Assembly (NCBI GenBank): GCA_020054495.1
Contig: JAHWGK010000031.1
Coordinates: forward strand, 1-33,785
From: Thermoplasmata archaeon
Lineage (GTDB): Archaea > Thermoplasmatota > E2 > DHVEG-1
DNA: 33,785 nucleotides
Direction: 5' to 3'
The notes under the pieces are model-generated. The model ran no database searches and had not been told where the DNA came from. It saw only the letters and a list, made by a program, of their open reading frames with translations. This document shows, in pieces, positions 10,235 through 27,110 of the stretch; position 1 is the stretch's first letter; each line of letters starts with the position of its first letter. A program made the position numbers and the translations under genes.

Positions 10235-12565
10235 CTATTTTACAACGGTTACCGTGATAGTTGCATAAGCATATCCTGCTGAATCTACGATGATAATGTT
10301 TTCTCTACATGTTACTACGACATTTGCTGAGTCTAAAGAAACTGATTGATCGGGGACATAGTTTAAGTATATAGCTTCACTGTTCCCTATTGTAACAAAG
10401 AAATCGTATTCATCTGACAAATCAAAAATATCTTTTAAATCTTGATAAGGCAGTTCTGATAGTTCGTATATTTTATCCATACTCAACAGAGCAGTATAAT
10501 CATTTTCAGTAACACTAGTTTGTCTCGAAAAGCTAATTTCTTCTTCATTTCCTACCAATATATAGGTTCGAACAGCATTATGTGCAATAACAATATTGTC
10601 TCCAAAGATTACCAAATATGTGTGATATTTTTCTGTTTCAAAATTATAGGTAGGGACCTTTTTATAGATTTTTTTCAAGGAGTCAATCTTGCCTTTGAGT
10701 AATGCTTCTCCAATTTTTAATTTACCTGCAGATATCCATTGTCCGTTTATGTACAATGGATGATCTGGAGTTATTCCTAGGTCATTGTTGAGAACTAAAT
10801 AATAATTACTTCTCATTTTCTCTGGAGGGTCATGAAAGATTTGAACTACTCGGTCCTTAGTAAAAATGTGGGTTTTTTCATCATATGATTTAACAATGTC
10901 TCCGATTTGAATATCTTCAATATTTTTTTGTGAACCATCTGCCATTTCTATTTTAGTACCCGCAAGAAAACATTGCAGCTCTTTCCCTCCATCTTCAATT
11001 TCACCAGGGACAACAACATTTACAAAAAAGGGCTCAGACCAGTCTTCACTTCTAACACCCTGCCTGTCCTCAGCAATTGCCCTTACCTCATACTCTCCAA
11101 GTGAACTCCAAAGGTGAGATGTCAAATAATCTTCGCCTTCTGGTAATCGATAGCTTGTCCATTCATCGACAATTATGTCACCATCCCAGTCCCAACCAAT
11201 TCTCACCGTTTCACCTTCAGGTGGAAGATCATCCACAGTGGATGTAATGAAATCAGCCAGCTCATCTTCTTCTATTTCCTGAGGGCCATCAGGTTTACTT
11301 GGACTTTCTGGTGGATTATTTTCTGGAGGCTCACCCTCCTCAACCAGAACCTCAAGTATCTCTGACCAATCCCCAAAGGCACTATGATTATCATCCTGAG
11401 GTATAGCCGTTACTCTATAAACACCTCCAGGTTGAGTCTCACTTGATTCACTCCAAACATGAGTTGCAGCCATAGGATTAAAGTTAGAATAAATAGTAAA
11501 TTCATCAACAATTTTGTCGCCATCCCAGTCCCAACCAATTCTTACATTATCACCATCTGGATCTCCAGCTACAACAGAATACTCACATATAGTAACACCG
11601 ATTATGATTTCAGAAGTAGGTCCTGTTGGACCAGCAAATATGATTGGCGCCAAATTTCCTTCGACAGTAATTACTTTAGGATCTGACCATTGGCCGTTCC
11701 AAGCATCATGTTCATCTTTTGCTCTAACTCTGATCTCATAAGTGTCTGCACTATTCCAGATATGACTTGCTTCTACATCATATCCAGATCTATTTGGGCC
11801 AAGCCAATCGCTTATCTCACCATCCCCCCAATCCCACATATAATAAACATCATCGCCCTCTGGATCGGTAGTGCTTGTTTCAAAAGAATATTCTTCCCCG
11901 GTTACATAGTCTATAGGATAAACTTGTTCAGTACAACTTGGAATAGTTGGCGTCTCTGGCGGCTCGTTAGGTGGGGGAATAGTTGCTGTGAAGCTCCATT
12001 TATCTGAAGTAGAATTACCAAAAGGTTTTGAATCATTAACTGTAACATACCACTTGTAATCTCCTGGTGATAATCCCACCCAAGTAAAAGAAGCACGACC
12101 ATGGTTGTTAACACCAAAATCTTCTCCAATAAGTTCTCCAGACTCTGCATAAAAAGAAACATTCAGTTCTTGGTCTTCTTCCTCATCTGCATCATGAACA
12201 GCAACACTTAACTCAATACTGTTGAGTGGACCTAACAGTACATTATCGCCATTCCCAGGGATTGGGTTATCCGCATATGGCGGTGAATTAAGAATAGTGA
12301 TATCAGTTATCGACTCAGTCGGAGGAACGGGCACTGATGTTTCAGGCTCTATTACAAGACCAACTTCAGATTCTGAAGTTAATAATATACTCATTATCTC
12401 TGTAGCCTTTACATTTGCATCAGCATAATACTGTGCAGATGCTTGTTCCACTGGAGGAGCCATCGAAGCAGTCACAACAACGAGAGTTGAAATTAATGCC
12501 ATACTCGCTATTGTAAATTCAAGGGGCGAAACAACCCCATAATTATTTTTGAATGATTTTCTCAT
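10235..12565 (-). CDS. Pilin-like protein with PKD repeats and a Hint domain
   Basis: This 776-residue exported protein begins with a basic end and a pilin-type hydrophobic helix (NNYGVVSPLEFTIASMALIS), then a helix ending in TEIMSILLTSES. A cadherin/FN3-like region (about 75-205) and three PKD-like domains (about 210-520; motifs such as RIGWDWDGD) follow. The Hint domain spans Cys532 (CFLAGTKIEMADGS) to His662-Asn663 (NIVIAHN), then Ala. The last 110 residues (LLSMDKIYELSELPYQDLKD, DEYDFFVTIGN) look like the second half of a haloarchaeal-type pilin (DUF7287-like; family number from memory). A PKD-Hint block thus seems inserted into a pilin. The ATG at 12565, preceded by GAGGGGAAGAGGGA, was preferred to an upstream TTG. 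It has its own promoter at 12634-12662. Confidence 0.85.
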   Translation of the reverse strand: MRKSFKNNYGVVSPLEFTIASMALISTLVVVTASMAPPVEQASAQYYADANVKATEIMSILLTSESEVGLVIEPETSVPVPPTESITDITILNSPPYADNPIPGNGDNVLLGPLNSIELSVAVHDADEEEDQELNVSFYAESGELIGEDFGVNNHGRASFTWVGLSPGDYKWYVTVNDSKPFGNSTSDKWSFTATIPPPNEPPETPTIPSCTEQVYPIDYVTGEEYSFETSTTDPEGDDVYYMWDWGDGEISDWLGPNRSGYDVEASHIWNSADTYEIRVRAKDEHDAWNGQWSDPKVITVEGNLAPIIFAGPTGPTSEIIIGVTICEYSVVAGDPDGDNVRIGWDWDGDKIVDEFTIYSNFNPMAATHVWSESSETQPGGVYRVTAIPQDDNHSAFGDWSEILEVLVEEGEPPENNPPESPSKPDGPQEIEEDELADFITSTVDDLPPEGETVRIGWDWDGDIIVDEWTSYRLPEGEDYLTSHLWSSLGEYEVRAIAEDRQGVRSEDWSEPFFVNVVVPGEIEDGGKELQCFLAGTKIEMADGSQKNIEDIQIGDIVKSYDEKTHIFTKDRVVQIFHDPPEKMRSNYYLVLNNDLGITPDHPLYINGQWISAGKLKIGEALLKGKIDSLKKIYKKVPTYNFETEKYHTYLVIFGDNIVIAHNAVRTYILVGNEEEISFSRQTSVTENDYTALLSMDKIYELSELPYQDLKDIFDLSDEYDFFVTIGNSEAIYLNYVPDQSVSLDSANVVVTCRENIIIVDSAGYAYATITVTVVK

Positions 12566-12633
12566 TTCCCTCTTCCCCTCACTCCTCCAATTTTTATATT
12601 TGAATCTATGTACATTATACTTTCTCACTTTTA

Positions 12634-12662
12634 ATATATAAATATATCGTGTCAAAATGACA
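12634..12662 (-). promoter_or_regulatory. Promoter with shared Hint-pilin upstream element
   Basis: On the minus strand TGTCATTTTGACACGAT is followed directly by a TATA region, ATATTTATATATT, and further on by AAAGTATAATGTACATAG. The same order and near-identical sequence precede the gene starting at 25566, and a weaker version precedes the gene starting near 21568. The element sits where BRE and activator sites lie in archaea. Confidence 0.6.
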
Positions 12663-13171: not shown

Positions 13172-13639
13172 TCACCTTAAAGTTAAAAACATGGTCAACA
13201 CTACCTTATAAATATTACCATCAATTACAATGATTCTAGAGGATCTTGCTTCTTTTCCAACTTTAACTAGTGCTTCTTTTAGTATCGTAGTATGATCATT
13301 TATTGAGTTTTCTGGATGTTTACTAAACTCTGATATATCAACTAGAGAAATCTCATACATAGTTCCATATGGAAGACTTCTATTAACATAATCTTTAAAC
13401 TCATCCTTATAGTCAATTGTTGAATACCTAGCCAATAAACTTGGATATTGTTCAAGATTATCTGGCACTCCTTCAAGGCTTGTTAGAATTCCATTACCTA
13501 AAATTTCAAGTTCGTTTTCTTCAGTTTTTGTTATATTAGGTGAAAATTCGAAAGTTCTGACAAAATAAAGTGACATAAGTAACATACCAGCTACAACAAT
13601 GACTTCAAGAACATGTATTTGAGCTGAGTTATTCATCAT
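13172..13639 (-). CDS. Small pilin-like membrane protein, DUF7288-like
   Basis: A 155-residue protein starting MMNNSAQIHVLEVIVVAGML with a single N-terminal hydrophobic helix, then an extracellular domain (ELEILGNGILTSLEGVPDN). It resembles haloarchaeal pilus-cluster proteins that begin with a QxHxLE-type motif. The start overlaps the stop of the preceding gene as ATGATGA, with GGAGGTAA just before it. Translation of the two is therefore coupled. A minor pilin role is inferred from context. Confidence 0.65.
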   Translation of the reverse strand: MMNNSAQIHVLEVIVVAGMLLMSLYFVRTFEFSPNITKTEENELEILGNGILTSLEGVPDNLEQYPSLLARYSTIDYKDEFKDYVNRSLPYGTMYEISLVDISEFSKHPENSINDHTTILKEALVKVGKEARSSRIIVIDGNIYKVVLTMFLTLR

Positions 13640-15510
13640 TTACCTCCTAAAATATTAATAATTCTTTCCCCACGTTGAATAGTCAAATCACCCACAGCCC
13701 AATAGTAATCACTAGCAGCATCGGCATCATCAAAGACAAGTTCAATTTGATAATTCCCATCAATAAAGTTGGGGAATATATCATAAAAAAACATTTTTTT
13801 ATAAGAGTTATCACAACTAGGGGCATCGTGCGAATTACCATTTATTGCAATGGTCATATTTTCAACCATTTTCTGTGGATCGCCTACAGTAAAAACCAAG
13901 CTGTGAACCTCGTTTGTTAAATTCGTAATTGTGAATGTAGCAGCGGCATTTGTTGAGTTGCAAACAAAATCATAGCTATTACTTCCGACATCATGCTCCA
14001 TTGATTTTATATTGCTAGGAATGTTCCATTCATAATCTTGAGAATCAGTTCCACATACATATGTAATAGGGATTGATTCTTCTGGACTAGCAACGCCCTC
14101 TGAAACATTGGCTTCAAATTTGCGTACAAATATCCAATCATAGTACGCAGTAGTATCACTCTCGGTTGTACAAAGACCAAAATGACTATCAACAGCATTA
14201 CTAGTTGAATAGCTTAATGCACCATCAACTGTATAGTTTTCATAAAAATAACGGCAAACAACAATGTCACTTTTATTTATAATATAGACAAGTCTATTCC
14301 ATCCTTGACTAACAGGCAATTCTGAAGAATTTTTAGGTGTACTTGGATAGTCTTCTATTATCGAAAGGTTTTTATTTCCCGTTGTAAAGTTTCCTGATGC
14401 AAAAAGATATGCATGACTATAAGGTACTCCACCATCTTCATCGTTTCTTGCAAACATGCTTGCTTCTCTTTTATCCCCAACTGTTTTTGCTTTAGCTTCG
14501 ATAACACATGGAGATGAGCCGATTTTTATTGTGGAGTTTATAGCAGATCCGTTTTTTATAACTATTTCACCATCATCAATAAAAATATCATCAGGGTCAC
14601 CAGGAATATATGTTTCCCATTCAGCTAGAGATGCTGAAAAGTCGTCGAAGAAATCAAATGTAGCTTCACCATTACCCATAGGTGACGCAGAACGTTTGCT
14701 ATGATACATATAAATTATTTCCGCAGGATATGAAAGAGATGTAATATTCACCCATATTCTCGATGTATGTGTATCTCTAGGATACCATCGTTCTATCCAG
14801 TAATTTAACATAAAACCTGTTTTGTTAATAAATCTTAAATCAGATCCGTTACTATTAGCCGATGAATAATCAAAATTAGTATCATCTAATTGAATTAGAA
14901 CCGAATAATTTTGTAAGGTTTTTCCAACTGGATTTGTTATTATAATAGGAGTTCTATTCGTCCAGTCCTTAAGGCTACCCAGCCATTTATTATTATTTGA
15001 TGAATTTGTTACTCTTGTATACCCTGTGCTCCCTTTTGAAGTATTTGAACCAAAATCAAATTTATGCACATAGTCATAACCATCACAAGAAATATTTATC
15101 GAACCATAGGATGAAGATATTTTACTAGATATATATAGAGACTGTTTCTCTGTGGCGTTATAAATTGTACTTTTTTCATTGATTTTCCCATCATATGATT
15201 TAACATATACTCCACTCTTGTCAATTTGAATATAGTACGAAAAACGATCTACTAGCTTAGCTGGAATCTCGAGTGCTGCCAAATGATCTGCATTTGGGTA
15301 ATCTTCTTTAAAATCACATACATTTGATATTGCACTTGCAACCTGATTTGCAATATTTTCAGCATATATCTCAGCTGCATCTCCTGCTTTCTCATCGATG
15401 AGAGTGTTAGTTGTTACTATAGTGACAACAATTATAACCGTTGTTAAAGAAAGTGTTAACATATAACCTATTAAATGAGAGACCCCTGAATTACTTTTTA
15501 AGAAACTCAT
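13636..15510 (-). CDS. Pilin-like protein carrying DUF2341 and LamG-like domains
   Basis: A 624-residue exported protein. The N-terminus (SNSGVSHLIGYMLTLSLTTV) is a pilin-type helix followed by a pilin-like region to about residue 150 (DUF7266-like). Residues about 160-290 match DUF2341 (LKDWTNRTPIIITNPVG, NYSVLIQLDDTNFDYSSAN, GSDLRF, LNYWIERWYP). Residues about 290-470 look like a LamG/concanavalin-type jelly roll. The last 150 residues form a separate beta-rich domain (MTIAINGNSHDAPSCDN). The cargo suggests binding to carbohydrate or another surface. The ATG at 15510 overlaps the upstream stop as ATGA. Confidence 0.75.
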   Translation of the reverse strand: MSFLKSNSGVSHLIGYMLTLSLTTVIIVVTIVTTNTLIDEKAGDAAEIYAENIANQVASAISNVCDFKEDYPNADHLAALEIPAKLVDRFSYYIQIDKSGVYVKSYDGKINEKSTIYNATEKQSLYISSKISSSYGSINISCDGYDYVHKFDFGSNTSKGSTGYTRVTNSSNNNKWLGSLKDWTNRTPIIITNPVGKTLQNYSVLIQLDDTNFDYSSANSNGSDLRFINKTGFMLNYWIERWYPRDTHTSRIWVNITSLSYPAEIIYMYHSKRSASPMGNGEATFDFFDDFSASLAEWETYIPGDPDDIFIDDGEIVIKNGSAINSTIKIGSSPCVIEAKAKTVGDKREASMFARNDEDGGVPYSHAYLFASGNFTTGNKNLSIIEDYPSTPKNSSELPVSQGWNRLVYIINKSDIVVCRYFYENYTVDGALSYSTSNAVDSHFGLCTTESDTTAYYDWIFVRKFEANVSEGVASPEESIPITYVCGTDSQDYEWNIPSNIKSMEHDVGSNSYDFVCNSTNAAATFTITNLTNEVHSLVFTVGDPQKMVENMTIAINGNSHDAPSCDNSYKKMFFYDIFPNFIDGNYQIELVFDDADAASDYYWAVGDLTIQRGERIINILGGK

Positions 15511-17360
15511 CTCAACCCCTCAATATTTACCTCGATGAACGAACTATCTAGAACAAAACGCTTACCATTTTCTGTATAATATATTGTATTTGGTCTATCT
15601 ACTATTCTTTCAAAGTCATATGATGTAGTGAAATAATTTATCCATAGCTCTGTGGCTTCTTCGAATGGATCATAAATCTGCATTTTGAAATTATATATTT
15701 TAGAATATTGAGATTCTTTTTCTGTAACTCTTGGCTCTCTGCTATAGCTATTTTTCATATTGAGTCCGATTTCGTATACTCCAGAACCACCAACACCTTT
15801 TACATAGGATTCACCTATCTGCATTATTCTAAATCCAATAGCTTCATCCTCCTCGAAAAAAGATGGATGGCTTTTTATACCATTATTTATAGGGCCAAAT
15901 GTCAATATGCCACCGTTTTGAAAAATTGTTATTTGAGAACCAATATCATTTCGAGATTCATAGGTTATAGAACCAAGGTCAAATACCCAAATTCTCCCAA
16001 AAGGTATATCTGTCCAAGAACCACCCCCAAACAAATCTATCCTTAATGTACCATTCAGTGGCTTTGTAGCCTCTATTGTCCAAATAGGATTAGCGCCATT
16101 TTTAATTGGAGATTCACTATAATATCTATCTTCTGGCAAATAATCGCCTATTCCAACAGATATTTCAGTTATATTATCCCCTTCATATATATTTCCATTG
16201 GTATCTTTTACTTGTAAGGTTATTGTATAGGTACCTGGTCTTGCATAAGTATGTGAAACATCATAATCTGTATTGTTGTCCACTAAAGGTGATTCTTTAA
16301 ACTCTCCGTCTCCCCAAAAAATTTTATAACTAATTTGATCATCATCGTTGTCTGTTGCAAGCGCATTATAATTTTCACTAACACCTGATCTAATTGGCGG
16401 AGTAGGTAAATTTAGTAATGGAGCATTTGGTGGAACATTATCCGTAAAATTTAATCTATATCCAAAATCGTAATCAGAGATTGAAGTCCATTTATCTCCA
16501 TTATTAACAGTAACATTTGCATCATAATAACTAGAATTATAAGGGGAATCTTTACTAAGACACCATTTGTAATAATTATAACTTCCACCACCAAAGCTAC
16601 CTCCAGAAGTATTTATACCAATATGATAAGTTTTACTGCCCTCTAATTGTATATCTGGATCAATATCCCATTCTATCCACTCAAAAGAAGAGGATATTTC
16701 ATCTTTAGATATAACGCTAGAAGCATAGGAGTCATTAACATCAGGTAAGTTGTTCCCAGTGGAATTGTATATAGAAACATTTAAATCGCTGGTGACCACA
16801 CCTCGTTCTGCAACATATATCTTTATTTTGTCTAGTTTCCAGTTGTCTACTGGTGGAGTAAATGATTGTGCACACCAATGATCCTGATATATCTTTCTAT
16901 AGGGTGATGTTTCAAAAGCATATTGTTGTGTTGTTTTTCCAGGGTCAAGCCAATAAATTTGTACTCTGTTTAGAGTTAGATCTCCTTCTATTGTAAAGGT
17001 TTCATTCTCATCATCCAAACCTGATACATTGAAATCAAAAGAATCGCCATCGTCAAATGCATATATTAGGATAAGTTTTTTACCTTTAGAGTCAATATTT
17101 AGAGACGCCTGCTCATTAGAACTTACAATATTGCTAAATCCTTTGGATCCATATCCATCAACGATTAAACCACTCATAGTGTCGTACATAACATCAAATC
17201 CAGCAAACACAGCCTGAGTTTCACCTCTTATCTCTTTTTCCTCAATATAAGGGATACCCCAGGCAAGAACCGCAGCTACAACTCCCAATACAATAGTGAG
17301 AGTCAATAATGTTGAAACAACTTCACCAACTGCGTTATTACTAATTTTCATTCCGTCCAT
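15507..17360 (-). CDS. Large pilin-like protein with a PKD domain, no Hint
   Basis: This 617-residue protein has a type IV pilin/archaellin-type N-terminus (NNAVGEVVSTLLTLTIVLGV) and a pilin-like domain ending in VQIYWLDPG near residue 140. A beta-rich region (about 140-315) and a PKD domain (about 316-400; ISYKIFWGDGEF) follow. The C-terminal 210 residues (GTLRIDLFGGGSWTDIPFGR, IWVFDLGSI) match the C-terminal domains of the two giant Hint proteins, so all three share one scaffold. Here no Hint follows the YWL motif, where the other two have it. It is the first gene of a four-gene overlapping operon. The ATG at 17360 follows AAAGGAT. Confidence 0.78.
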   Translation of the reverse strand: MDGMKISNNAVGEVVSTLLTLTIVLGVVAAVLAWGIPYIEEKEIRGETQAVFAGFDVMYDTMSGLIVDGYGSKGFSNIVSSNEQASLNIDSKGKKLILIYAFDDGDSFDFNVSGLDDENETFTIEGDLTLNRVQIYWLDPGKTTQQYAFETSPYRKIYQDHWCAQSFTPPVDNWKLDKIKIYVAERGVVTSDLNVSIYNSTGNNLPDVNDSYASSVISKDEISSSFEWIEWDIDPDIQLEGSKTYHIGINTSGGSFGGGSYNYYKWCLSKDSPYNSSYYDANVTVNNGDKWTSISDYDFGYRLNFTDNVPPNAPLLNLPTPPIRSGVSENYNALATDNDDDQISYKIFWGDGEFKESPLVDNNTDYDVSHTYARPGTYTITLQVKDTNGNIYEGDNITEISVGIGDYLPEDRYYSESPIKNGANPIWTIEATKPLNGTLRIDLFGGGSWTDIPFGRIWVFDLGSITYESRNDIGSQITIFQNGGILTFGPINNGIKSHPSFFEEDEAIGFRIMQIGESYVKGVGGSGVYEIGLNMKNSYSREPRVTEKESQYSKIYNFKMQIYDPFEEATELWINYFTTSYDFERIVDRPNTIYYTENGKRFVLDSSFIEVNIEGLR

Positions 17361-17707
17361 TTATCCTTTATTCAACATAATCCATTTTTTCGATAATTTA
17401 TAACTTGAAAAAACTGATTTCAATATGTTAAGAGAAGTAAAATTTTGATTAAATTCTCCTAGCATTCTTCCCACTCCTAAACCTTATATAGAGAGCAACC
17501 CAGTTTATCTAATGATATATTAATTAAAAAGCTTTTTGCTCTTGTAATTAGCTCTAACAAACTAAAATGGTGTTTTTTTTACTAGTTTGAATTCAAATAA
17601 AAAAAGTTTTTAGTTATTAAGAGCTAAATTTATTAAGAGATAAAATAAAAGAGCATCATTTTTATTTAATTGGCAGTAATAAAAAAGATATAGGAAGATG
17701 AAGTAGT
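17361..17707. other. Intergenic region: promoter, 3' region of the giant pilin, U-tracts
   Basis: No gene is seen. The left part holds the promoter of the pilin operon (TATA, 17391-17406). The right part is the 3' region of the upstream gene, with T-runs on the minus strand (about 17562-17609 and 17683-17690) that may end its transcript. TTATATAGAGAGCAAC (17485-17500) resembles TTATAGAGGGCAACTG (21705-21720), so part of this stretch seems copied along with the giant pilin gene. Confidence 0.5.
17391..17406 (-). promoter_or_regulatory. TATA box for the four-gene pilin operon
   Basis: The minus strand reads AAGTTATAAATTATCG, about 38 bases before the ATG at 17360. The TGACA-type upstream element of the Hint-pilin genes is absent, so this operon may be controlled differently. 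Confidence 0.4.
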
Positions 17708-20700
17708 TTATACTAAATCAGTTTTAATAAGAGCTGACGTAAAAATCAACTGTTTTCCACGATAATTATCATAGACTAAAAAATCAGAAAACTGCCCGGT
17801 TTGAGAATCAAACTTAAAATTCTTAGTTAAATATTCATGCCATGTAATACTATACTCCCCTGAAAATTTGACTTTAAAATTATACACATTATATCCCTGT
17901 TGTTCTCTAGTGAAAGTATCCTGATTTTCAAAGGAAAGTCCATATGTACCAGCACCACTTCCAGCAATAATATTATCTGCTCTAATCATAGTAATAGTAA
18001 ATCCAAGAATATCTCCGTTCTCATAGATATTTGAAAAGCTATCTACGTATGCGCCACCTGGTAAAACTGACATCACACCACCACTCTGAAGACAGGTCTT
18101 AAACTCTCCAGATGCTGAAGGGATTCTATGAACAATAGAACCAAGGTCAAACACATAAATAACACCAAATGGAGCCTCACCTCTAGCGGGATCATCTGCA
18201 GATGGATAGCTATCATTAAACAAATGGATACAAACTGCACCAACTAAATTATTACCAGCATCGATAGGGTCTCCAGGATCAGAAATTCTTATGGATGTTG
18301 AATTGTCTGGTGGAACAACATACTGATAATAAACCTTTATTGCTATTGGAGCCGCCCAGTCGCTAGCTGAACCATTTGTGGTAGGATCACCATCTTCATC
18401 TGCATTATCATCATTTATTGCTTGAACAGTAATTTCATAAACACCAGATACATCCCAATTATGAGAAGGAAGCAATTGTCCAGATTCATTAACTGTTTGA
18501 TTTGCTTTGTATGGACCCCACCAAGTCCTACTTTCAATACCATCTCCCCAATCAAAATAATAGTAAATATCATCTCCCTCTCTATCGGTACTACCAACAT
18601 TGAACTCGTAAGAAATATCATTGTATAACTTTGAAGGATTGAAAATAACTTCAATATTAGAGGGAGTAGTGGGAGGACCACCTGGAAAAACATACTTTGT
18701 TAAATAACCATAACGACCAGCTGTTTCCTCAACACGAAGCTTAACCTCATAGGATTCATCACTACCATGATCATAACTAACATTAACACCAGAAGCATCC
18801 CAGCTTCCATCATTTTCAAAATCCCATGAATAACTTGTTATTGGACCCTCGACACCATACGAACAACTACCATTAAAATACATAAGTGTACCAGAAAATC
18901 CACCATCAGCATCCCAGTAATCAAAGCAAGCAACTGGCCCATCAATATTTTGTGTAAAATAATCATATTGACCTATTGCATCTTCCACACGAAGCCTAAC
19001 CTCATATGCTTCAGTGCTTCCATGGTCATAGCTAATATTAATACCATCGGTATCAAAAGTTCCATCATTTTCAATATCCCATAAATACTCCACTATTCCA
19101 ACATCATCAGATGAACAAGTTGCATCAAAATAATATAGATTACCTCCCCCACCATCAGCATCCCAGTATTCGAAACAAGCTGTTGGAGGGGTATCGCCAG
19201 GAGGGGTAATACCAAAGTCACTGTCATATTGTGTACTCCATCGCCCCAAACTCTTACTAGGAAAAAACACCTGTTCATAAACATAGGTCCATGCTCTAAT
19301 ATAATAGGTTGTATCAGGGTTCAATCCACCCTTTGTGTAAGAAGATCCAGTACCATTGTAAAAAACCATAGCGGTAAGATCTTCTGGATGTGAAGGATAA
19401 CCACTGGTCTTAGCTAAAATTTTTGTATAAACATCAGCACCATCTCCACATATTGCCTTATCCCAAGAGAGATGTAACGATGTTGAACTTTGAGGGGTTG
19501 CATCAAGAGCTTGAGGACCAGGTGGTATTGTAATGAAAAAATTAGTCCAAAAAATTTCATTAGGCCATAATTCTGTAGTACCAGCATCATTTGTGGCATC
19601 AGCCTTTACAAAATAGAAATCTCCTGAAACAAGATCCGCTATATCTGTATTAACTTGACCCGTATAGCGATTTTCAACATCAACCGAATCATGATCGCCA
19701 TAACACGTATCACCATTTTTATAGTAAAAAGTAACGGTATCTCCATCGTTATGAGTAGCTAGTGTTGCATAATCCAAACCATCATCATCAAGATAAGCAT
19801 TCAATGTTGCTGTGGTTTCTCCAACATTTGCTGATTCATTTAAGGTACCCTCAGGTGGAGTAACATAATGGACTATTAACTCCGGAATTTTATCGTCGAG
19901 TCTTAATGATTCAAATGAGATAACATATTTGGGCGGCAAACCTGGTTCGCTTTCCCAGGCACTTATTAACCAACCATAATTATCTCTTAGACCAGAATGT
20001 AGCTCTCTAGTACTTTGGGTCATACCAATGCCACCCTGTAAAGGAGCATCATCACCCCAAATAACCCACTCGCCAATCGAACTCGGCATAGTTGCTTCTG
20101 CAATTGTATCAAGCTGGGGATATTCAGGCCCTTGTCGTATATGCTGCCGGTATATACCACTTAAAGGCCACTGTTGGGAACCAGATGTATCCCAATATTT
20201 CCAGCTAGTATCACCATCCTCCCAGTCACAATCATTAACTTCCTGTGAAAAAACCGGTCTGCCTACAGGATCATTATATACCCATGAACAATAATAAAGT
20301 TCCAACCTTGCTTTTTCAATAAATGCATTACTGGGAATATTATCTAAAGGAAATCTAACCAGTGTACGCTTTTTATTAGTACCTATAGCAAGCTTATTAC
20401 ATAATTTGAGATAATTTTCAGAACATCCTGATGTACTAGATACGTCAGCTTTATCAATATAACAATCTTGATCTGGATATAAAGTTAGTCCATCTCCAAT
20501 CTGTTCTGGCTCACCTCCAACTCCGGCTCCAAGTGGACTAAGCCAGGTTGGGGAACAAGACATCCTATTTACAACAACAGAGCTAGAAACAACAAACTTT
20601 TCAACATCTGAACGAACTAAGAAACCATCAGCAAAATAAGCATTACCAGATTCTATCAACAAATCAAAACTAAGCTCCTTCGAAAACCTCTTTTCTACAG

Positions 20701-21568
20701 AAAACAAAGAAATCTTACGACCAGCAACATCAAATAAAACATCACCAACACTAAGCTTTCCAGCCTCAACCCACTCGTTATTAACAAATAGTATATGATT
20801 AGGAGTAACCCTTAACTCATCATTAATAACAACATAATAATCAGTCATGCGATCTTTACTATAAGACAACAGTTTTTTCACACGAGAATCAACAAAACTA
20901 CCAGAAACATCATCATACGACCTAACAACATCCCCCGCGTCAATATCCTCAATGTTCTTCAAGGATCCATCTGCCATAGTTATTTTAGTACCCGCAAGAA
21001 AACACGTACCCTCAAGCCAATAAATAGTTACATTATCAACATTAGGTCCATCAATAGAAAAAAGAGAGTCATCATCTTCCAATCCACTAACATTAAAATT
21101 CCAATCTTCATCTTCGTTATTAGAATATAATGCTATTAATCGCTCACCCGTCGAATCAATCTCAATTGATCCATCATTAATAACAATATCACTAGTAGAA
21201 CTAGAACCATTCCCACCTGCAATTAAACTATTAAGAACTTCTACAATAGAATTATATTGACTAATAGTAGCTCTAGTCTGATATTTACTTTCTTCACCTT
21301 TAATGTAATCCGGACCCCACAAAAGAACTGCACCAGTTGCTGAGAAAAAAATCATTAATACTAACATAAGGGACATGGCAGAGCTTACAGCATCATTTTT
21401 TAAAAGTCTGTTTAATTTATGTCTAATGTTATGTACTTTTTTCTTCAGTATACCCCTCCATATATTACTATGTAGAGTGCAATCCGATAGTCTTAATATA
21501 ATTGGGATATAAAAGCTTTTTATAATAGAGTTCTTACTAAATATTGTACAATTTACATTACCAACCAT
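17708..21568 (-). CDS. Giant Hint-domain pilin-like protein, paralog A
   Basis: About 1286 residues. A pilin-type segment (LLKNDAVSSAMSLMLVLMIF) leads into a pilin-like domain ending in NVTIYWLEGT. Next comes a Hint domain starting at Cys189 (CFLAGTKITMADGSLKNIED) and running to about residue 335, ending YFADGFLVRSD rather than His-Asn. A DNRLRE-like domain (about 345-570), two FN3-like domains, two close PKD copies with the CFDYWDADGG start and a third PKD domain follow. The last 200 residues (PFGVIYVFDLGSIVHRIPSA) complete the pilin scaffold. The start is uncertain: ATG at 21568 follows GGAGAG, but homology with paralog B suggests a CTG at 21448 behind GGAGGGG. Confidence 0.85.
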   Translation of the reverse strand: MVGNVNCTIFSKNSIIKSFYIPIILRLSDCTLHSNIWRGILKKKVHNIRHKLNRLLKNDAVSSAMSLMLVLMIFFSATGAVLLWGPDYIKGEESKYQTRATISQYNSIVEVLNSLIAGGNGSSSTSDIVINDGSIEIDSTGERLIALYSNNEDEDWNFNVSGLEDDDSLFSIDGPNVDNVTIYWLEGTCFLAGTKITMADGSLKNIEDIDAGDVVRSYDDVSGSFVDSRVKKLLSYSKDRMTDYYVVINDELRVTPNHILFVNNEWVEAGKLSVGDVLFDVAGRKISLFSVEKRFSKELSFDLLIESGNAYFADGFLVRSDVEKFVVSSSVVVNRMSCSPTWLSPLGAGVGGEPEQIGDGLTLYPDQDCYIDKADVSSTSGCSENYLKLCNKLAIGTNKKRTLVRFPLDNIPSNAFIEKARLELYYCSWVYNDPVGRPVFSQEVNDCDWEDGDTSWKYWDTSGSQQWPLSGIYRQHIRQGPEYPQLDTIAEATMPSSIGEWVIWGDDAPLQGGIGMTQSTRELHSGLRDNYGWLISAWESEPGLPPKYVISFESLRLDDKIPELIVHYVTPPEGTLNESANVGETTATLNAYLDDDGLDYATLATHNDGDTVTFYYKNGDTCYGDHDSVDVENRYTGQVNTDIADLVSGDFYFVKADATNDAGTTELWPNEIFWTNFFITIPPGPQALDATPQSSTSLHLSWDKAICGDGADVYTKILAKTSGYPSHPEDLTAMVFYNGTGSSYTKGGLNPDTTYYIRAWTYVYEQVFFPSKSLGRWSTQYDSDFGITPPGDTPPTACFEYWDADGGGGNLYYFDATCSSDDVGIVEYLWDIENDGTFDTDGINISYDHGSTEAYEVRLRVEDAIGQYDYFTQNIDGPVACFDYWDADGGFSGTLMYFNGSCSYGVEGPITSYSWDFENDGSWDASGVNVSYDHGSDESYEVKLRVEETAGRYGYLTKYVFPGGPPTTPSNIEVIFNPSKLYNDISYEFNVGSTDREGDDIYYYFDWGDGIESRTWWGPYKANQTVNESGQLLPSHNWDVSGVYEITVQAINDDNADEDGDPTTNGSASDWAAPIAIKVYYQYVVPPDNSTSIRISDPGDPIDAGNNLVGAVCIHLFNDSYPSADDPARGEAPFGVIYVFDLGSIVHRIPSASGEFKTCLQSGGVMSVLPGGAYVDSFSNIYENGDILGFTITMIRADNIIAGSGAGTYGLSFENQDTFTREQQGYNVYNFKVKFSGEYSITWHEYLTKNFKFDSQTGQFSDFLVYDNYRGKQLIFTSALIKTDLV
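20580..21013 (-). repeat. Hint-coding segment, copy 1 of a near-identical pair
   Basis: This stretch and 24690-25116 differ at only about one base in twenty by eye. The pilin-type parts before and after it in both genes are also very similar, while the DNRLRE/FN3/PKD parts are not alignable at the DNA level. The end of the third Hint gene's homologous segment (10940-10972) is also close. Confidence 0.8.
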
Positions 21569-21640
21569 CAAATTTTATCTCTCCAAATACACCTTTAGCA
21601 TGACATACTATGCCATTACAAGATATATTCTGTTTGAACT

Positions 21641-21671
21641 TATATTTAAATATTTTGTGTAAAAAAGGCAA
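21641..21671 (-). promoter_or_regulatory. Promoter of paralog A with shared upstream element
   Basis: On the minus strand TGCCTTTTTTACACAAAAT is followed by the TATA region ATTTAAATATAAG. The arrangement matches the elements at 25629-25660 and 12634-12662, though less exactly. The TATA box is about 75 bases before the ATG at 21568. Confidence 0.5.
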
Positions 21672-21837
21672 AAAACCCAAATTTTTATTTTTTTAGATTA
21701 TCTCTTATAGAGGGCAACTGAAAAAATATTATTTATCGAGTAAAGCAGCTAATTCGTAAAAAGATAAAAGCCTACATCATTTTTGTTTTGTAATAAATAA
21801 AAAAAGAATAGAGAGAAACCCTGAGAGAATAAGTAAT

Positions 21838-24800
21838 TTATTGTAAATCTGCTTTAATTAGCGCTGTTGAAAAAATCAACTGTTTTCCGCCATAATCATC
21901 ATAAACTAGAAAATCAGAAAACTGTCCAGATTGAGAATCAAACTTAAAATTCCTTGTTAAATATTCATGCCACGTAATACTATACTCACCTAAAATCTTG
22001 ACTTTTAAATTATATACATTGGATTCTTGTTGTTCCCTTGTAAATGTATCCTGATTTTCAAAGGTAAGTCCATATGTACCAGCACCACTTCCAGCAATAA
22101 TATTATCTGCTCTAATCATAGTAACGGTAAATCCAAGAATATCTCCGTTCTCATAAATATTTGAATAACTATCTATGTGTGCGCCACCTGGTAAAACTGA
22201 CATCACACCACCACTCTGAAGTAACGTCTTATGCTCCCCAGATGCTGAAGGGATTCTATGAACAATAGAACCAAGATCAAACAAATAAATAACACCAAAT
22301 GGAATCTTGCCCTTATCAACAGAATTTGCTAACGGTGGGTAACTATCATTAAACAGATGGATACAAACCGCACCAACTAAATCCTGATATGCTGTAAAGG
22401 TATTGCTCTCTGGTGAATCTGGAGATACTTTTTCAGGTTCTTCCCTTATATCCGGTGGAACAACATATTTATAAAGAACTCTTAGTGCTTGTGGATCTGA
22501 CCACTCGGTTTCGAAGCTAGTTGCGTCTTTTTTTGCTTTTACGCTAACTTCATAAACTCCTTTTTCACTCCACGCATGATCTGCTTCAACTGTATCTCCT
22601 GTGTTATATGGACCATTCCAATCAGTTACTCCATTTTCATCTCCAAAGTCAAACTTATAAGAGACACCATCTTCTGTTGCAGTTAATCCAAAGATATATG
22701 TTGTTTCATTATAATAAATTGAAAAAGGAAGATCAAGCGTATTTGGTTTACCCAGTACACCTGTCACATTTACCCGGCATTTATCTGACCAAGCACCTTC
22801 ACCACCTCCAGATGGAGCACGAGCTTGAGCACTAACGTTATATATACCAGATGATGGCCATGAATGACTCTCAAAAAAAGTACCAGGATCACTAAGAACG
22901 CTCCAATCTGTGATATCGCTCGTACCGTCAACATCCCAATTAATCCTGTATTGAATTTGGTCATTTTCTGGATCAGTTACTAATAGTTGAAATTCTCCAC
23001 TTTCGCCAATACTTAAATTACCTTCAAACTTTGGTGTAAGCACTACAGATGGTGGAATACTAACTGAAGGGTTGACAGTCACATTTAAAGCATTTGACCA
23101 ACTACTAAATGGTGGAGTATCAGAATCTTTTGCTTGGACTCTTACTTCGTATACACCTGGTGAGAACCATGAGTGAGACACACTAACAGGTGTCCCTGAA
23201 GGAACCCAAGATGACCAGCTACTAGACTCATCAACAACTCCTGAGGCATTCCAGTTAAACCGATATGAAATTTTATCACCCTCAGGGTCAGTTGCAACTG
23301 TTTCATACATATGTGGAACGCCAACATCTACTGGTGTATCACCAGCAGGAGTACTCGGTGTATCTGGAGGACTATTCGATGATGTACATATTATACACTG
23401 ATCTGGAACATTGTTTCGCTGCCAAAGCCCATCTTCAGTGACATTAGTATAAGCACTAAAATAATAACAAGTATCTTCGTCTAAATCATAAAATGTATGG
23501 TACTCCTGCATTCCTTTCCAAGCTTTAACAAGCGGATTTGTTAAGTCTTCATCATAAGTAGGATATGAACCTTCTTTACACAATACTTTTGTGTAAACAT
23601 CCTGACCAGTACCTTCAACTGCACCTTCGTCCCAAACAACCTTTATTTTATTTGGTCCTGATCCTGTAGAAGCTTCTTCGAGATATGTAGGAGAAGGTGG
23701 TATAGTAATGAATTCTACTATACTTCCATAACCATTACTATACGCACTGTTTTCTGCATAAGCTTTATATTCTACAAGATCTCCAGAGTTCAAATTGCTA
23801 ATGGAAACGCTGATAAGAGCTGAGTCACTATAATCATAACGGCTTGTTGATTTTGATGTTGTATACGAAAGTGAACCATATCCCCATTTAAAATAACAAT
23901 CGGTTGCCTCACCACCATCATAAGTTAGTTTACCCTCAAGTGTGGCTGAGTCGGTTCCGATACCTGTTGGATTCCATGTTTCAATAGTTGGTGGAGCAAT
24001 AAAACTAACAATCATGAATGGTGATTCATATTCTCTAGAGCGATATTTAACAGTGTGTTGTAATGTTCCAATATCTTCATCTACATCTTTTATATACCAA
24101 CCATGAAAATCTTCATAATGTCCTAGTTGAATACCTACCGGATTACTACCCCAACTATAACCTACGAACTCTTGTATACTACTTGTAACATCCCATTCCT
24201 TCCAACCAAAGCCTGTTTTACTGATTGATACACTATATAATACACCTGGATCTGATTCCCTGAAATTAAATTCTTGATTATCCCAATCTGCACCGGCTGG
24301 AGGTAATTCGTTCCATGAATTTGCACATTCATAAACATCGTGTTGACGTGGCCATCCTATTCCAACACCATCCCATGAGTAATAAAGGAGGTTTAAATCA
24401 GCATCAATAATATAGGAAAATTCTGGAATGTCTGATTCATCAAAATCAGTTTTAACAAGTGCACGATTTAGATAACTTATAACAGGGTGCATTGGATCTA
24501 CGTATAATTTTGGCTCCTCGCCATAATTAATATCTGGAGAATATTTAGATATATATGTATCTTTAGTTGCAGTGGAATTCAATTCTATTGGATAATCATG
24601 CCATGAACTAAGTGGTGGTACTGATTCTTCTCCAAGTGGATCTAGCTGTACTGGGGCACAAGACATCATACTTACGCCAACAGAACTAGAAACAACGATC
24701 TTTTCAACATCTGAACGTACTAAGAAGCCATCAGCAAAATAAGTATTACCTGATTCCAACAGCAAATCAAAACTAAGTTCCTTTAAAAACCTCTTTTCTA

Positions 24801-25566
24801 TAGAAAACAAAGAGATCTTACGACCAGCAACATCAAATAAAACATCACCAACACTAAGCTTTCCAGCTTCAACCCACTTGTTATTAACAAATAGTATATG
24901 ATTTGGAGTAACCCTTAACTCATCATTAATAACAACATAATAATCAGTCATACGATCTTTACTATAAGACAACAGTTTTTTCACGCGAGAATCAACAAAA
25001 CTACCAGAAACATCATCATACGACCTAACAACATCCCCTGCTTCAATATCCTCAATGTTCTTCAAGGACCCATCTGTCATAGTTATTTTAGTTCCCGCAA
25101 GAAAACACGTATCCTCAAGCCAATAAATAGTTACATTATTAACATTTTGACCATTAGTCATAATAATTTCGAGTAAATTTTTATTATTATCATCGAGTGA
25201 TGCATTAAAATCCCAGTTTTGATTAAAAGAATATGCAATTATTATCTTTTCACCCTTTGAGTCAATCTCAATTGATCCATCATTAATAACAATATCACTA
25301 GTAGAACTAGAACCATTCCCACCTGCAATTAAACTATTAAGAACTTCTACAATAGAATTATATTGACTAACAGTGGCTCTAGTCTGATATTTACTTTCTT
25401 CACTTTCAATGTACTGTGGCCCCCATAAAAGAACAGCACCAGTTGCTGAGAAAAAAATCATTAACACTAACATAAGGGATATAGTAGAACTCATTGCGTC
25501 ATTTTTTAATAGTCTTGATAAACTGTGTTTAATGGTATTAAGTTTATTTTTCATTGTTATATTCAT
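21838..25566 (-). CDS. Giant Hint-domain pilin-like protein, paralog B
   Basis: 1242 residues. The pilin-type N-terminus (LLKNDAMSSTISLMLVLMIF) and pilin-like domain lead to NVTIYWLEDT and a Hint domain from Cys154 (CFLAGTKITMTDGSLKNIED) to about residue 300, ending YFADGFLVRSD without His-Asn. Next are a DNRLRE-like domain (about 320-520; DTYISKYSPDINYG), two FN3-like domains (about 520-730), three or four PKD domains (about 735-1030; PEGDKISYRFNWNAS) and the conserved C-terminal pilin domain (PFGVIYLFDLGSIVHRIPSA). The ATG at 25566 is preceded by AAGGAAAGGAGAG. The ends are nearly identical to paralog A while the middle differs. The protein is presumably secreted and assembled by the pilus machinery encoded upstream. 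Confidence 0.87.
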   Translation of the reverse strand: MNITMKNKLNTIKHSLSRLLKNDAMSSTISLMLVLMIFFSATGAVLLWGPQYIESEESKYQTRATVSQYNSIVEVLNSLIAGGNGSSSTSDIVINDGSIEIDSKGEKIIIAYSFNQNWDFNASLDDNNKNLLEIIMTNGQNVNNVTIYWLEDTCFLAGTKITMTDGSLKNIEDIEAGDVVRSYDDVSGSFVDSRVKKLLSYSKDRMTDYYVVINDELRVTPNHILFVNNKWVEAGKLSVGDVLFDVAGRKISLFSIEKRFLKELSFDLLLESGNTYFADGFLVRSDVEKIVVSSSVGVSMMSCAPVQLDPLGEESVPPLSSWHDYPIELNSTATKDTYISKYSPDINYGEEPKLYVDPMHPVISYLNRALVKTDFDESDIPEFSYIIDADLNLLYYSWDGVGIGWPRQHDVYECANSWNELPPAGADWDNQEFNFRESDPGVLYSVSISKTGFGWKEWDVTSSIQEFVGYSWGSNPVGIQLGHYEDFHGWYIKDVDEDIGTLQHTVKYRSREYESPFMIVSFIAPPTIETWNPTGIGTDSATLEGKLTYDGGEATDCYFKWGYGSLSYTTSKSTSRYDYSDSALISVSISNLNSGDLVEYKAYAENSAYSNGYGSIVEFITIPPSPTYLEEASTGSGPNKIKVVWDEGAVEGTGQDVYTKVLCKEGSYPTYDEDLTNPLVKAWKGMQEYHTFYDLDEDTCYYFSAYTNVTEDGLWQRNNVPDQCIICTSSNSPPDTPSTPAGDTPVDVGVPHMYETVATDPEGDKISYRFNWNASGVVDESSSWSSWVPSGTPVSVSHSWFSPGVYEVRVQAKDSDTPPFSSWSNALNVTVNPSVSIPPSVVLTPKFEGNLSIGESGEFQLLVTDPENDQIQYRINWDVDGTSDITDWSVLSDPGTFFESHSWPSSGIYNVSAQARAPSGGGEGAWSDKCRVNVTGVLGKPNTLDLPFSIYYNETTYIFGLTATEDGVSYKFDFGDENGVTDWNGPYNTGDTVEADHAWSEKGVYEVSVKAKKDATSFETEWSDPQALRVLYKYVVPPDIREEPEKVSPDSPESNTFTAYQDLVGAVCIHLFNDSYPPLANSVDKGKIPFGVIYLFDLGSIVHRIPSASGEHKTLLQSGGVMSVLPGGAHIDSYSNIYENGDILGFTVTMIRADNIIAGSGAGTYGLTFENQDTFTREQQESNVYNLKVKILGEYSITWHEYLTRNFKFDSQSGQFSDFLVYDDYGGKQLIFSTALIKADLQ
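24690..25116 (-). repeat. Hint-coding segment, copy 2 of a near-identical pair
   Basis: Matches 20580-21013 at about 95% by eye. See that entry for the extent of similarity. Confidence 0.8.
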
Positions 25567-25584
25567 CTCTCCTTTCCTTACTTC

Positions 25585-25602
25585 GGCATAATAAATTATG
25601 CC
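25585..25602 (-). promoter_or_regulatory. Leader hairpin before paralog B
   Basis: GGCATAA (25585-25591) and TTATGCC (25596-25602) form a perfect 7-bp inverted repeat with a TAAA loop, between the TATA box and the ribosome binding site. The paralog A leader has only a weak counterpart (GCAT/ATGC at 21598-21613). It may be an operator or an RNA hairpin. Confidence 0.4.
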
Positions 25603-25628
25603 ATATACGTTATACTTTGTAAATACTA

Positions 25629-25660
25629 ATATATAAACATTTCGTGTAAAAATGTCAAAT
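25629..25660 (-). promoter_or_regulatory. Promoter of paralog B with shared upstream element
   Basis: On the minus strand TTGACATTTTTACACGAAAT is followed by the TATA region GTTTATATATTAG and, 10 bases on, AAAGTATAACGTATATGG. This is the clearest form of the element also seen at 12634-12662. The TATA box is about 68 bases before the ATG at 25566. Confidence 0.65.
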
Positions 25661-25720
25661 CAATAAATTTTTCTATTGCATTAAATATTATCATTTTATA
25701 GGGAAACATTTTGTTAATGC

Positions 25721-25754
25721 CTATATTTATATGTTTCTTGTTAAAATGTCAAAT
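25721..25754 (-). promoter_or_regulatory. Second copy of the TGACA/TATA promoter element
   Basis: TTTGACATTTTAACAAGAAA followed by CATATAAATATAGG on the minus strand repeats the layout at 25629-25660 about 94 bases farther upstream. It could be a second promoter for paralog B or a duplication left by recombination. Only a 27-codon frame starts near it (ATG at 25709). Confidence 0.45.
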
Positions 25755-25841
25755 CATCAATCTTTTAATTTATTGTAGATATTAGAGATATATAAGAAAA
25801 TGATTCAAACAATATTTTTTATAAATTAAACCTATGATACA

Positions 25842-27110
25842 TTATTTATCTAATTCATCGTTTTTAACAATCTTTTTCCATATAATAGAAATTATCAATG
25901 ATGATATTATACTCACTAAAATAATTCCTATCGCTGCAAATACATTCTTTAATAAATCCGGATTTATTAACAAAACAATTCCAAAAGAAAACATCATTAT
26001 ACCAGAAACCAATTTTAGAATCCTACCTTGATACTCGCTAATTTTCCTTCGACCAAGAGTTACAACAAATATCAAAACAATAACAATTAATGGTATCACA
26101 TAGACAATATTATATATTAGTATATATAGATAAGATTGCATTAGAGGGACATTGTGAATAATTAAAGAATTTGTAAAAACAACTGGTAATCCCAATGTAC
26201 AAGCTAATTCATAGGTATTTGCAAATATTGCTAATGCAATTGTTCCAAGAATCATTGTTGGCAAATGTGTAATTTTAACCACACCACGCATTCGTTTGAA
26301 TAATTTTTTCTTTTTACTTTTAGATATACTCAAAGAAAAACCTTGTTTAAAGAAGAAAAAATCTTTAATATTAATACTACCAAGAATCAAAGCAACTAGA
26401 CCCGCTACCAATGTAACAATAAAAGGTTGTTCTAGTTTAGTGAAAGTTGTTAACAACAAAACCATAAGTAAAAAATAAATAAAACCAGAAAAAAAGATAA
26501 AAATTCCTCCAATTATAAGCATTCGCTTTCTAGATTTTGCATATAAAAGAAGGTTTAATAAAAATAATAAAATGAAAAATGAGCAAGGATTCACACTATC
26601 AAGAGCACCCAAAACAATTGTTAGAACCGGTAAAGACAGCTCCGAGAGATTAAAACAAAATAAACCAAAAGGTGTATCTATACAAATACTATCCCGATCA
26701 GGTTCAGGGGGCACCTCTGAATAATTCCCGGCCAGATGATAATCTATTGCATCTTGAAGATTTTTTTCAGTTGTATTATCATAAACAAACCAAAATAAGG
26801 CTTTATTATTTGTTTGATTTTTAACAACTGTGCCAGGAGTGGCTGTAAAACCATATGAATAAAATAGTTCTCTATTTGCATTATTTTTTATTGAGAATCG
26901 ATAAACAGTTAGATTATTTTCATATTGTTCTTCAATTAGATCAATTATTGGGGCGGTCTCTTCACAATTACCACATCCTTCATTATAGAAAAATTCAAGG
27001 GCAATATCAGTATCTTCTGCAATAACAGACTGCGTAAAGTTAAAAAACAAAAAAGATAGCGAAATAGCAATAAAAAAGCAACGCAAATATCTATTCATCA
27101 AAGCAAACAT
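25842..27110 (-). CDS. Thioredoxin-CcdA/DsbD-like thiol-disulfide transporter
   Basis: The 422-residue protein starts with a signal-type segment, then an extracellular thioredoxin-like domain (about 32-130) with the active site CGNC at residues 46-49 and the cis-Pro region FTATPGTVV. A membrane domain with about six or seven helices follows, of CcdA/DsbD type, with SVNPCSFFILLF in its first helix and ELACTLGLPVVFTN later; these two Cys form the expected redox pair. It should pass electrons from the cytoplasm to extracellular thiols. It lies between the secretion genes and the Cys-bearing Hint proteins. The ATG at 27098 (MNRYLRC) is an alternative start. Confidence 0.85.
   Translation of the reverse strand: MFALMNRYLRCFFIAISLSFLFFNFTQSVIAEDTDIALEFFYNEGCGNCEETAPIIDLIEEQYENNLTVYRFSIKNNANRELFYSYGFTATPGTVVKNQTNNKALFWFVYDNTTEKNLQDAIDYHLAGNYSEVPPEPDRDSICIDTPFGLFCFNLSELSLPVLTIVLGALDSVNPCSFFILLFLLNLLLYAKSRKRMLIIGGIFIFFSGFIYFLLMVLLLTTFTKLEQPFIVTLVAGLVALILGSINIKDFFFFKQGFSLSISKSKKKKLFKRMRGVVKITHLPTMILGTIALAIFANTYELACTLGLPVVFTNSLIIHNVPLMQSYLYILIYNIVYVIPLIVIVLIFVVTLGRRKISEYQGRILKLVSGIMMFSFGIVLLINPDLLKNVFAAIGIILVSIISSLIISIIWKKIVKNDELDK

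Follow-up and report, generated by a model that had tools for sequence, protein, structure and literature searches.

Two giant pilin genes in a type IV pilus operon

The window, the whole 33,785-nt contig that was analyzed, belongs to an archaeal metagenome-assembled genome (MAG) of 2.72 Mb, which is divided into 248 contigs and is 90% complete. Its minus-strand genes from position 33738 down to 10235 constitute a type IV pilus operon, with secretion ATPase and TadC-like genes neighboring the pilin genes. The operon encodes two ATPases, two TadC-like proteins, a thioredoxin-like membrane protein, the giant pilins B and A, pilin C, a DUF7266 pilin, two small pilins and a third pilin with Hint and PKD domains. 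The T2SSE ATPase was identified by Pfam, and the two ATPase and two TadC-like ORFs have syntenic homologues in Thermoplasmatales archaeon RS_17_39 (JAGMDE010000013; hereafter G018). A scan of genome contigs identified the relatives G018 and Thermoplasmata archaeon CSMAG_2056 (DAOWIZ010000080; hereafter G007), both Thermoplasmatota MAGs, and otherwise distant Hint domains. Distant Hint relatives were also all that an IMG/VR search returned, and positions 17300–26000 had no match in Rfam.

The coordinates of the features are listed in the table below. Both giant ORFs were confirmed, with gene B lying upstream of gene A on the minus strand. Giant pilin B consists of an N-terminal pilin half (residues 1–151), a Hint domain (152–286) with a tail extending to residue 313, a DNRLRE/CBM96 domain (331–523), FN3a, FN3b, PKD1, PKD2, PKD3 and a C-terminal pilin half (1056–1241). 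The listed start codon of A is a TTG at 21571, and homology with B starts only at residue 42, where a CTG codon is preceded by GGAGGGG and aligns with an ATG in G018. The true start of A therefore probably lies downstream of the listed TTG.

Features of the giant pilin locus, with positions in the window
Feature	Positions	Strand	Remarks
Giant pilin A	17708..21571	-	Homologous part of 1246 aa from residue 42 (about 21448); B-like architecture; middle vertically inherited
Giant pilin B	21838..25566	-	1242 aa
B promoter region	25579..25676	-	BRE/TATA-like element and palindrome; closest to the G018 promoter
A promoter region	21590..21700	-	Homologous to those of B and G018; most diverged of the three
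A leader	21449..21589	-	About 140 nt between promoter and pilin start; conserved in G018, absent from B
B N-terminal pilin half	25114..25554	-	Constant; class III-type N-terminus, TM helix, first beta strands
A N-terminal pilin half	20999..21448	-	Constant
B Hint domain	24709..25113	-	Cys1 and TPNH present; Arg-Ser in place of terminal His-Asn (FLVRSD)
A Hint domain	20606..21010	-	Terminal His-Asn likewise lost
B variable middle	22474..24627	-	DNRLRE and PKD1-2 non-orthologous to those of A
A variable middle	18323..20527	-	Orthologous to the single giant pilins of G007 (43-47%) and G018 (40-41%)
B C-terminal pilin half	21841..22383	-	Constant
A C-terminal pilin half	17711..18252	-	Constant
Pilin C	15507..17360	-	617 aa; shares both pilin halves but lacks a Hint; the insertion site holds another insert (PKD, choice-of-anchor-like)
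Third Hint pilin	10235..12655		PKD domains precede the Hint; Hint retains His-Asn (IAHNA)

The conserved ends correspond to one interrupted pilin

A compact-pilin HMM was built from three pilins of about 330 aa, encoded in the same operon of genomes G011, G022 and G024. On B, profile positions 5–144 matched residues 21–156 and positions 161–322 matched residues 1056–1231; on A, the matches covered residues 58–173 and 1045–1271 (E about 1e-45 for each protein). Both giant pilins contain the N-half and the C-half of the compact profile in this order, and the same two-piece match was obtained for pilin C and for giant pilins of other genomes. The cut-off of PF23960 (DUF7289) was exceeded by two of the three compact pilins used for the HMM; the PF23960 profile itself gave no direct match to A or B. 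In A and B, each conserved end is therefore one half of a compact, DUF7289-like pilin split at a single site, and the Hint domain and the middle together are an insert within this pilin. Co-conservation of the two ends is expected because both form one pilin domain.

Pilin C is compact in G011, G022 and G024; in the source genome, G007 and G018 it carries a 280-residue insert at the same site. AlphaFold2 modeling of pilin C from three sequences gave a mean pLDDT of 39.7.

By description, the giant pilins resemble the arCOG02911-type pilins (DUF7289, PF23960) in the ATPase/TadC operon context, the all-beta pilin and the class III-type N-terminal signal. These pilins of euryarchaeal type IV pilus loci are products of a duplication-prone gene and vary in length from about 250 to 550 aa (Makarova et al, 2016; PMC4858521). 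A and B differ from them in that the pilin is interrupted by a 900-residue insert of Hint and adhesin-type modules, bringing the proteins to 1242–1330 aa. In these giant surface proteins, the two conserved ends together make up one pilin, which the cargo splits.

The Hint domain lacks the C-terminal His-Asn

The Hint domain scored above the cut-off of both PF07591 and PF01079, and the nearest solved structures by sequence include the bacterial intein-like domain 2lwy. The N-terminal block of Cys and TxxH is present, with CFLAGTK and TPNH invariant. At the C-terminus, the His-Asn followed by Cys, Ser or Thr is absent from A, B, G007 and G018; all four end in FLVRSD, FLAKSD or FMVRSD, with Arg-Ser or Lys-Ser in place of His-Asn. 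The other Thermoplasmatota Hint domains inspected that are complete at this end all retain His-Asn. The Hint domains of A and B therefore share the fold family, Cys1 and TxxH motif of the bacterial intein-like (BIL) and PT-HINT/Hint domains, but have lost the C-terminal His-Asn and sit inside a pilin.

Without the terminal His-Asn, splicing and C-terminal cleavage should be lost in Hint domains of this type. At most, such a domain would be able to form an N-terminal thioester, allowing cleavage or ligation after the N-half of the pilin. A literature search for Hint domains together with archaeal pilins returned no relevant paper, and none of the literature searched reported Hint domains placed inside pilins. 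A speculative and rather doubtful extension is a display system in which one insertion site of the pilin takes exchangeable adhesin cargo behind the Hint domain: conversion would keep pilin and Hint interchangeable, cargo would be swapped between paralogs and species, and a thioester-only Hint would either free the cargo or tie it covalently to the pilus or to a surface.

Identity of A and B changes abruptly along the genes

The DNA identity of A and B in a codon alignment was 80.6% in the N-terminal pilin part, 94.5% in the Hint domain (about 95% in the initial annotation), 80.6% in the Hint tail and 87.0% in the C-terminal part. In the middle it ranged from 42 to 58% (DNRLRE, 44.9%; FN3, 46–54%; PKD, 42–58%), and the protein identity of the 700-residue middles was 22–40%. 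Synonymous differences per site were 0.32, 0.145, 0.31 and 0.27 for the N-terminal pilin part, Hint, Hint tail and C-terminal part, respectively, and were saturated in the middle. Long BLASTN alignments were limited to two blocks, one of 932 nt (86.5% identity) and one of 552 nt (86.8%), and the middle gave no long alignment. The drop in identity takes no more than about ten codons; it is located near residue 313 of B on one side and around residues 1035–1062 on the other.

The initial annotation described the middles as unrelated. They are indeed strongly divergent: the DNRLRE regions of A and B did not match each other at E 1e-3, and PKD1-2 of B falls in another clade (see below). However, both middles have the module order DNRLRE-FN3-FN3-PKD-PKD-PKD, and FN3b is clearly homologous (39% aa identity), so that "unrelated" is too strong a term for the middles as a whole.

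Such a tandem could in principle be an artifact in which two strain alleles of one locus were joined in the MAG, and the 248 contigs and the exact A/B repeats of up to 109 nt in the ends fit this view. However, alleles of different strains would be expected to be more alike than 86%, a homologous promoter and a spacer of its own accompany each copy, and the surrounding genes C, D, E, F and H occur once each, in the order found in G018. We consider this explanation extremely unlikely, although a misjoin inside the 109-nt exact repeat is conceivable in an assembly of this kind.

The middles carry modules of different origin

In trees and by identity, the middle of A groups with those of G007 (43%) and G018 (40%), and that of B falls outside (28, 26 and 25%). 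In a domain-by-domain search, the best matches of DNRLRE and PKD1-2 of A were the syntenic orthologs. For B, the best DNRLRE matches were G011 and a 4055-aa protein of the same genome, and the best PKD1-2 matches were generic PKD pairs across the family. The PKD1-2 tree placed A with the giant pilins of G018 and G007 (support 1.0) and B within the clade of generic PKD pairs (0.92), and the DNRLRE tree grouped A, G007 and G018 with a support of 0.96. In the FN3b tree, B branched near the giant pilins without resolution. DNRLRE and PKD1-2 of B thus derive from other lineages than those of A. No close donor of the middle of B was found among 45 genomes of the family.

The ratio d(A,B)/d(A,G007) was 0.26 for Hint, 0.46 for the C-half and 0.51 for the N-half, and rose to 1.93 for DNRLRE, 1.98 for PKD1-2 and 1.38 for FN3b, with FN3b and PKD3 in the range of 1.2–1.4. 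One history with proportional branches for all segments was rejected (2dlnL = 338.5, df 24, p~3e-57), indicating a mosaic, as the initial annotation had proposed, rather than uniform divergence. A uniform duplication would explain the saturated middle only through its exposure and relaxed or diversifying selection. The middle does evolve faster than the ends between orthologs too (A versus G007, 43% versus 65% identity), and the low ratios of FN3b and PKD3 are in line with this explanation. Against it, the middle of A is closer to those of two other species than to that of B, PKD1-2 of B groups away from A, G007 and G018, and the likelihood ratio test excludes a common history. As an account of the whole gene it is highly improbable. 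Considered module by module, uniform duplication was rejected for DNRLRE and PKD1-2 and may account for FN3 and PKD3.

Promoters are older than the coding ends

The promoters of A and B are homologous and have a TATA-like block and a palindrome in common. The palindrome lies directly upstream of both giant genes (GGCATAATTTATTATGCC at 25585–25602 for B and GGCATAGTATGTCATGCT at 21597–21614 for A, minus strand); its counterpart in G018, GACATGATGTATCATGTC, shows compensatory changes. It is a candidate operator or 5'-UTR hairpin. Within the leader of A lies a short upstream reading frame that shares the frame of the pilin. In G018, the corresponding frame encodes 39 aa and is in another frame; in G007, it encodes 37 aa and its stop adjoins the start codon. 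A leader peptide is a possible product, and the leader has been lost in B. The single gene of G018 joins a B-like promoter to an A-like leader and middle.

In the promoter core (104 aligned columns), the distances were 0.337 for A-B, 0.317 for A-G018 and 0.221 for B-G018; in the coding ends they were 0.129, 0.352 and 0.352, respectively. The branch proportions of promoter and coding ends were incompatible (LRT 44.4, p 2e-10; against third positions, 38.0, p 6e-9), and a model in which both promoters drifted freely, as fast as third positions, after the ends had split was rejected (p 3e-5). The promoters of A and B thus split about as long ago as G018, and the coding ends much later.

Trees of the ends join A and B as sisters and leave the syntenic single giant genes of G007 and G018 outside; the alternative groupings had AU p values of 0.002 and 0.02. 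When these two orthologs were used to define polymorphic sites, the longest run of identity between A and B comprised 55 consecutive sites at residues 66–100 of B, compared with a null mean of 17 and none as long in 5000 shuffles. Third positions alone were also clustered (p 0.0012); purely synonymous differences, which use no outgroup information, were clustered weakly and not significantly (p 0.09 and 0.14). Homogenization was stronger in the Hint domain than elsewhere in the N-half (Fisher p 7e-8). Both conflicting segment histories and identity runs, the two signs looked for in gene conversion, were observed. The age difference between ends and promoters and the 55-site run uphold the proposal that recombination or gene conversion kept the pilin parts and Hint alike. 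Differences in selection between segments might mimic part of the identity-tract pattern.

A tandem pair formed recently, by duplication of promoter and gene, might also account for the ends without gene conversion if the DNRLRE and PKD modules of B were then replaced once, by recombination of the homologous or the illegitimate type; the partner would be another giant pilin gene, which a relative may have supplied. The N-half, Hint and C-half taken alone are compatible with one shared age (likelihood, p 0.25), a single giant gene occupies the syntenic place in G007 and G018, the replaced modules are non-orthologous to those of A, and the homologous upstream regions imply that promoter and gene were duplicated together. 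However, the promoters are far older than the ends even when neutral drift is allowed, which would demand an exceptional promoter history; the identity tracts in the ends are patchy; and a donor for the middle of B was found neither in its own genome at the DNA level nor, as a close one, in the 45 family genomes. We therefore regard a recent duplication as rather unlikely, albeit the simplest competitor.

We favor, as the probable explanation, an old tandem pair in which the constant ends were homogenized by gene conversion between neighbors and the middles were diversified by module replacement. Repeated conversion between the neighboring copies would re-homogenize the pilin halves and Hint, and selection for assembly into the same filament would keep the ends similar enough for recombination. 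The middles would have passed the divergence limit for conversion and would diversify by module replacement. On a shared pilus scaffold, A and B would each display a cargo of their own, of an adhesive or carbohydrate-binding type. If the pair is old, G007 and G018 must both have lost a copy or had their two giant genes collapsed into one; the mosaic gene of G018 is consistent with collapse of a tandem pair through crossing-over. In these neighboring genes, the promoter, the pilin ends and the cargo each follow an evolutionary clock of their own.

Diversification without signs of programmed variation

The initial annotation had further proposed exchange of the middles, as in antigenic or adhesin variation. 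Exchange is in keeping with the modules in the middle of B that are non-orthologous to those of A, but the middles are old and saturated and do not represent recent swaps. DNA searches of the source genome, about 90% complete, found no copy of the middle of A beyond stretches of 28–50 nt and, for B, nothing beyond A and two single stretches, one of 95 nt in Hint and one of 41 nt. Cassette conversion would draw on silent, partial copies of the variable region, and none was found in the assembled 90% of the genome, and the claim of ongoing or programmed variation is unsupported.

A program exchanging middles from a reservoir during population growth would suit the constant ends around a variable middle, and homologous ends could guide the exchange. 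Module gain and loss at the insertion site does occur between species: in G007, Hint and DNRLRE are separated by an additional FN3-like segment of about 90 aa, and pilin C has its own insert. Set against this are the lack of silent cassettes of either middle in the assembled genome and the saturation of the middles, and relevant immune pressure is not known for an uncultured environmental archaeon; programmed variation is very unlikely. The data support an evolutionary diversification of presumptive surface proteins; nothing in them pointed to a system that switches on demand.

In Neisseria pilE/pilS antigenic variation, constant pilin parts accompany a variable exposed part, and recombination takes place between related pilin genes. 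A and B are similar in both respects. Unlike pilE/pilS, they are two full, expressed-looking genes with their own promoters and without silent cassettes in the assembled genome; moreover, conversion affects the constant part instead of the variable one, and the divergence is ancient.

Homology-dependent copying is efficient in Euryarchaea: efficient gene conversion between chromosome copies has been described in Haloferax volcanii (PMC11276520). That work concerns copies of one chromosome, whereas A and B are paralogous surface-protein genes in tandem. The locus offers a testable model of how uncultured archaea may diversify surface adhesins on a fixed pilus machine.

Other variable genes of the operon

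The third Hint pilin differs in length among the source genome and its G007 and G018 orthologs (806, 674 and 572 aa). The DUF7266/DUF2341 pilin (13636–15510) has 624 aa, and its relatives in G011, G022 and G024 have 1814–2207 aa; a constant N-terminus with a variable remainder is seen here as in the giant pilins. At 32895–33785, in the N-terminal part of the first ATPase gene, there is a 372-bp in-frame tandem repeat of 2.4 copies that are 99% identical. It extends to the end of the contig and represents either a recent expansion or an assembly edge effect.
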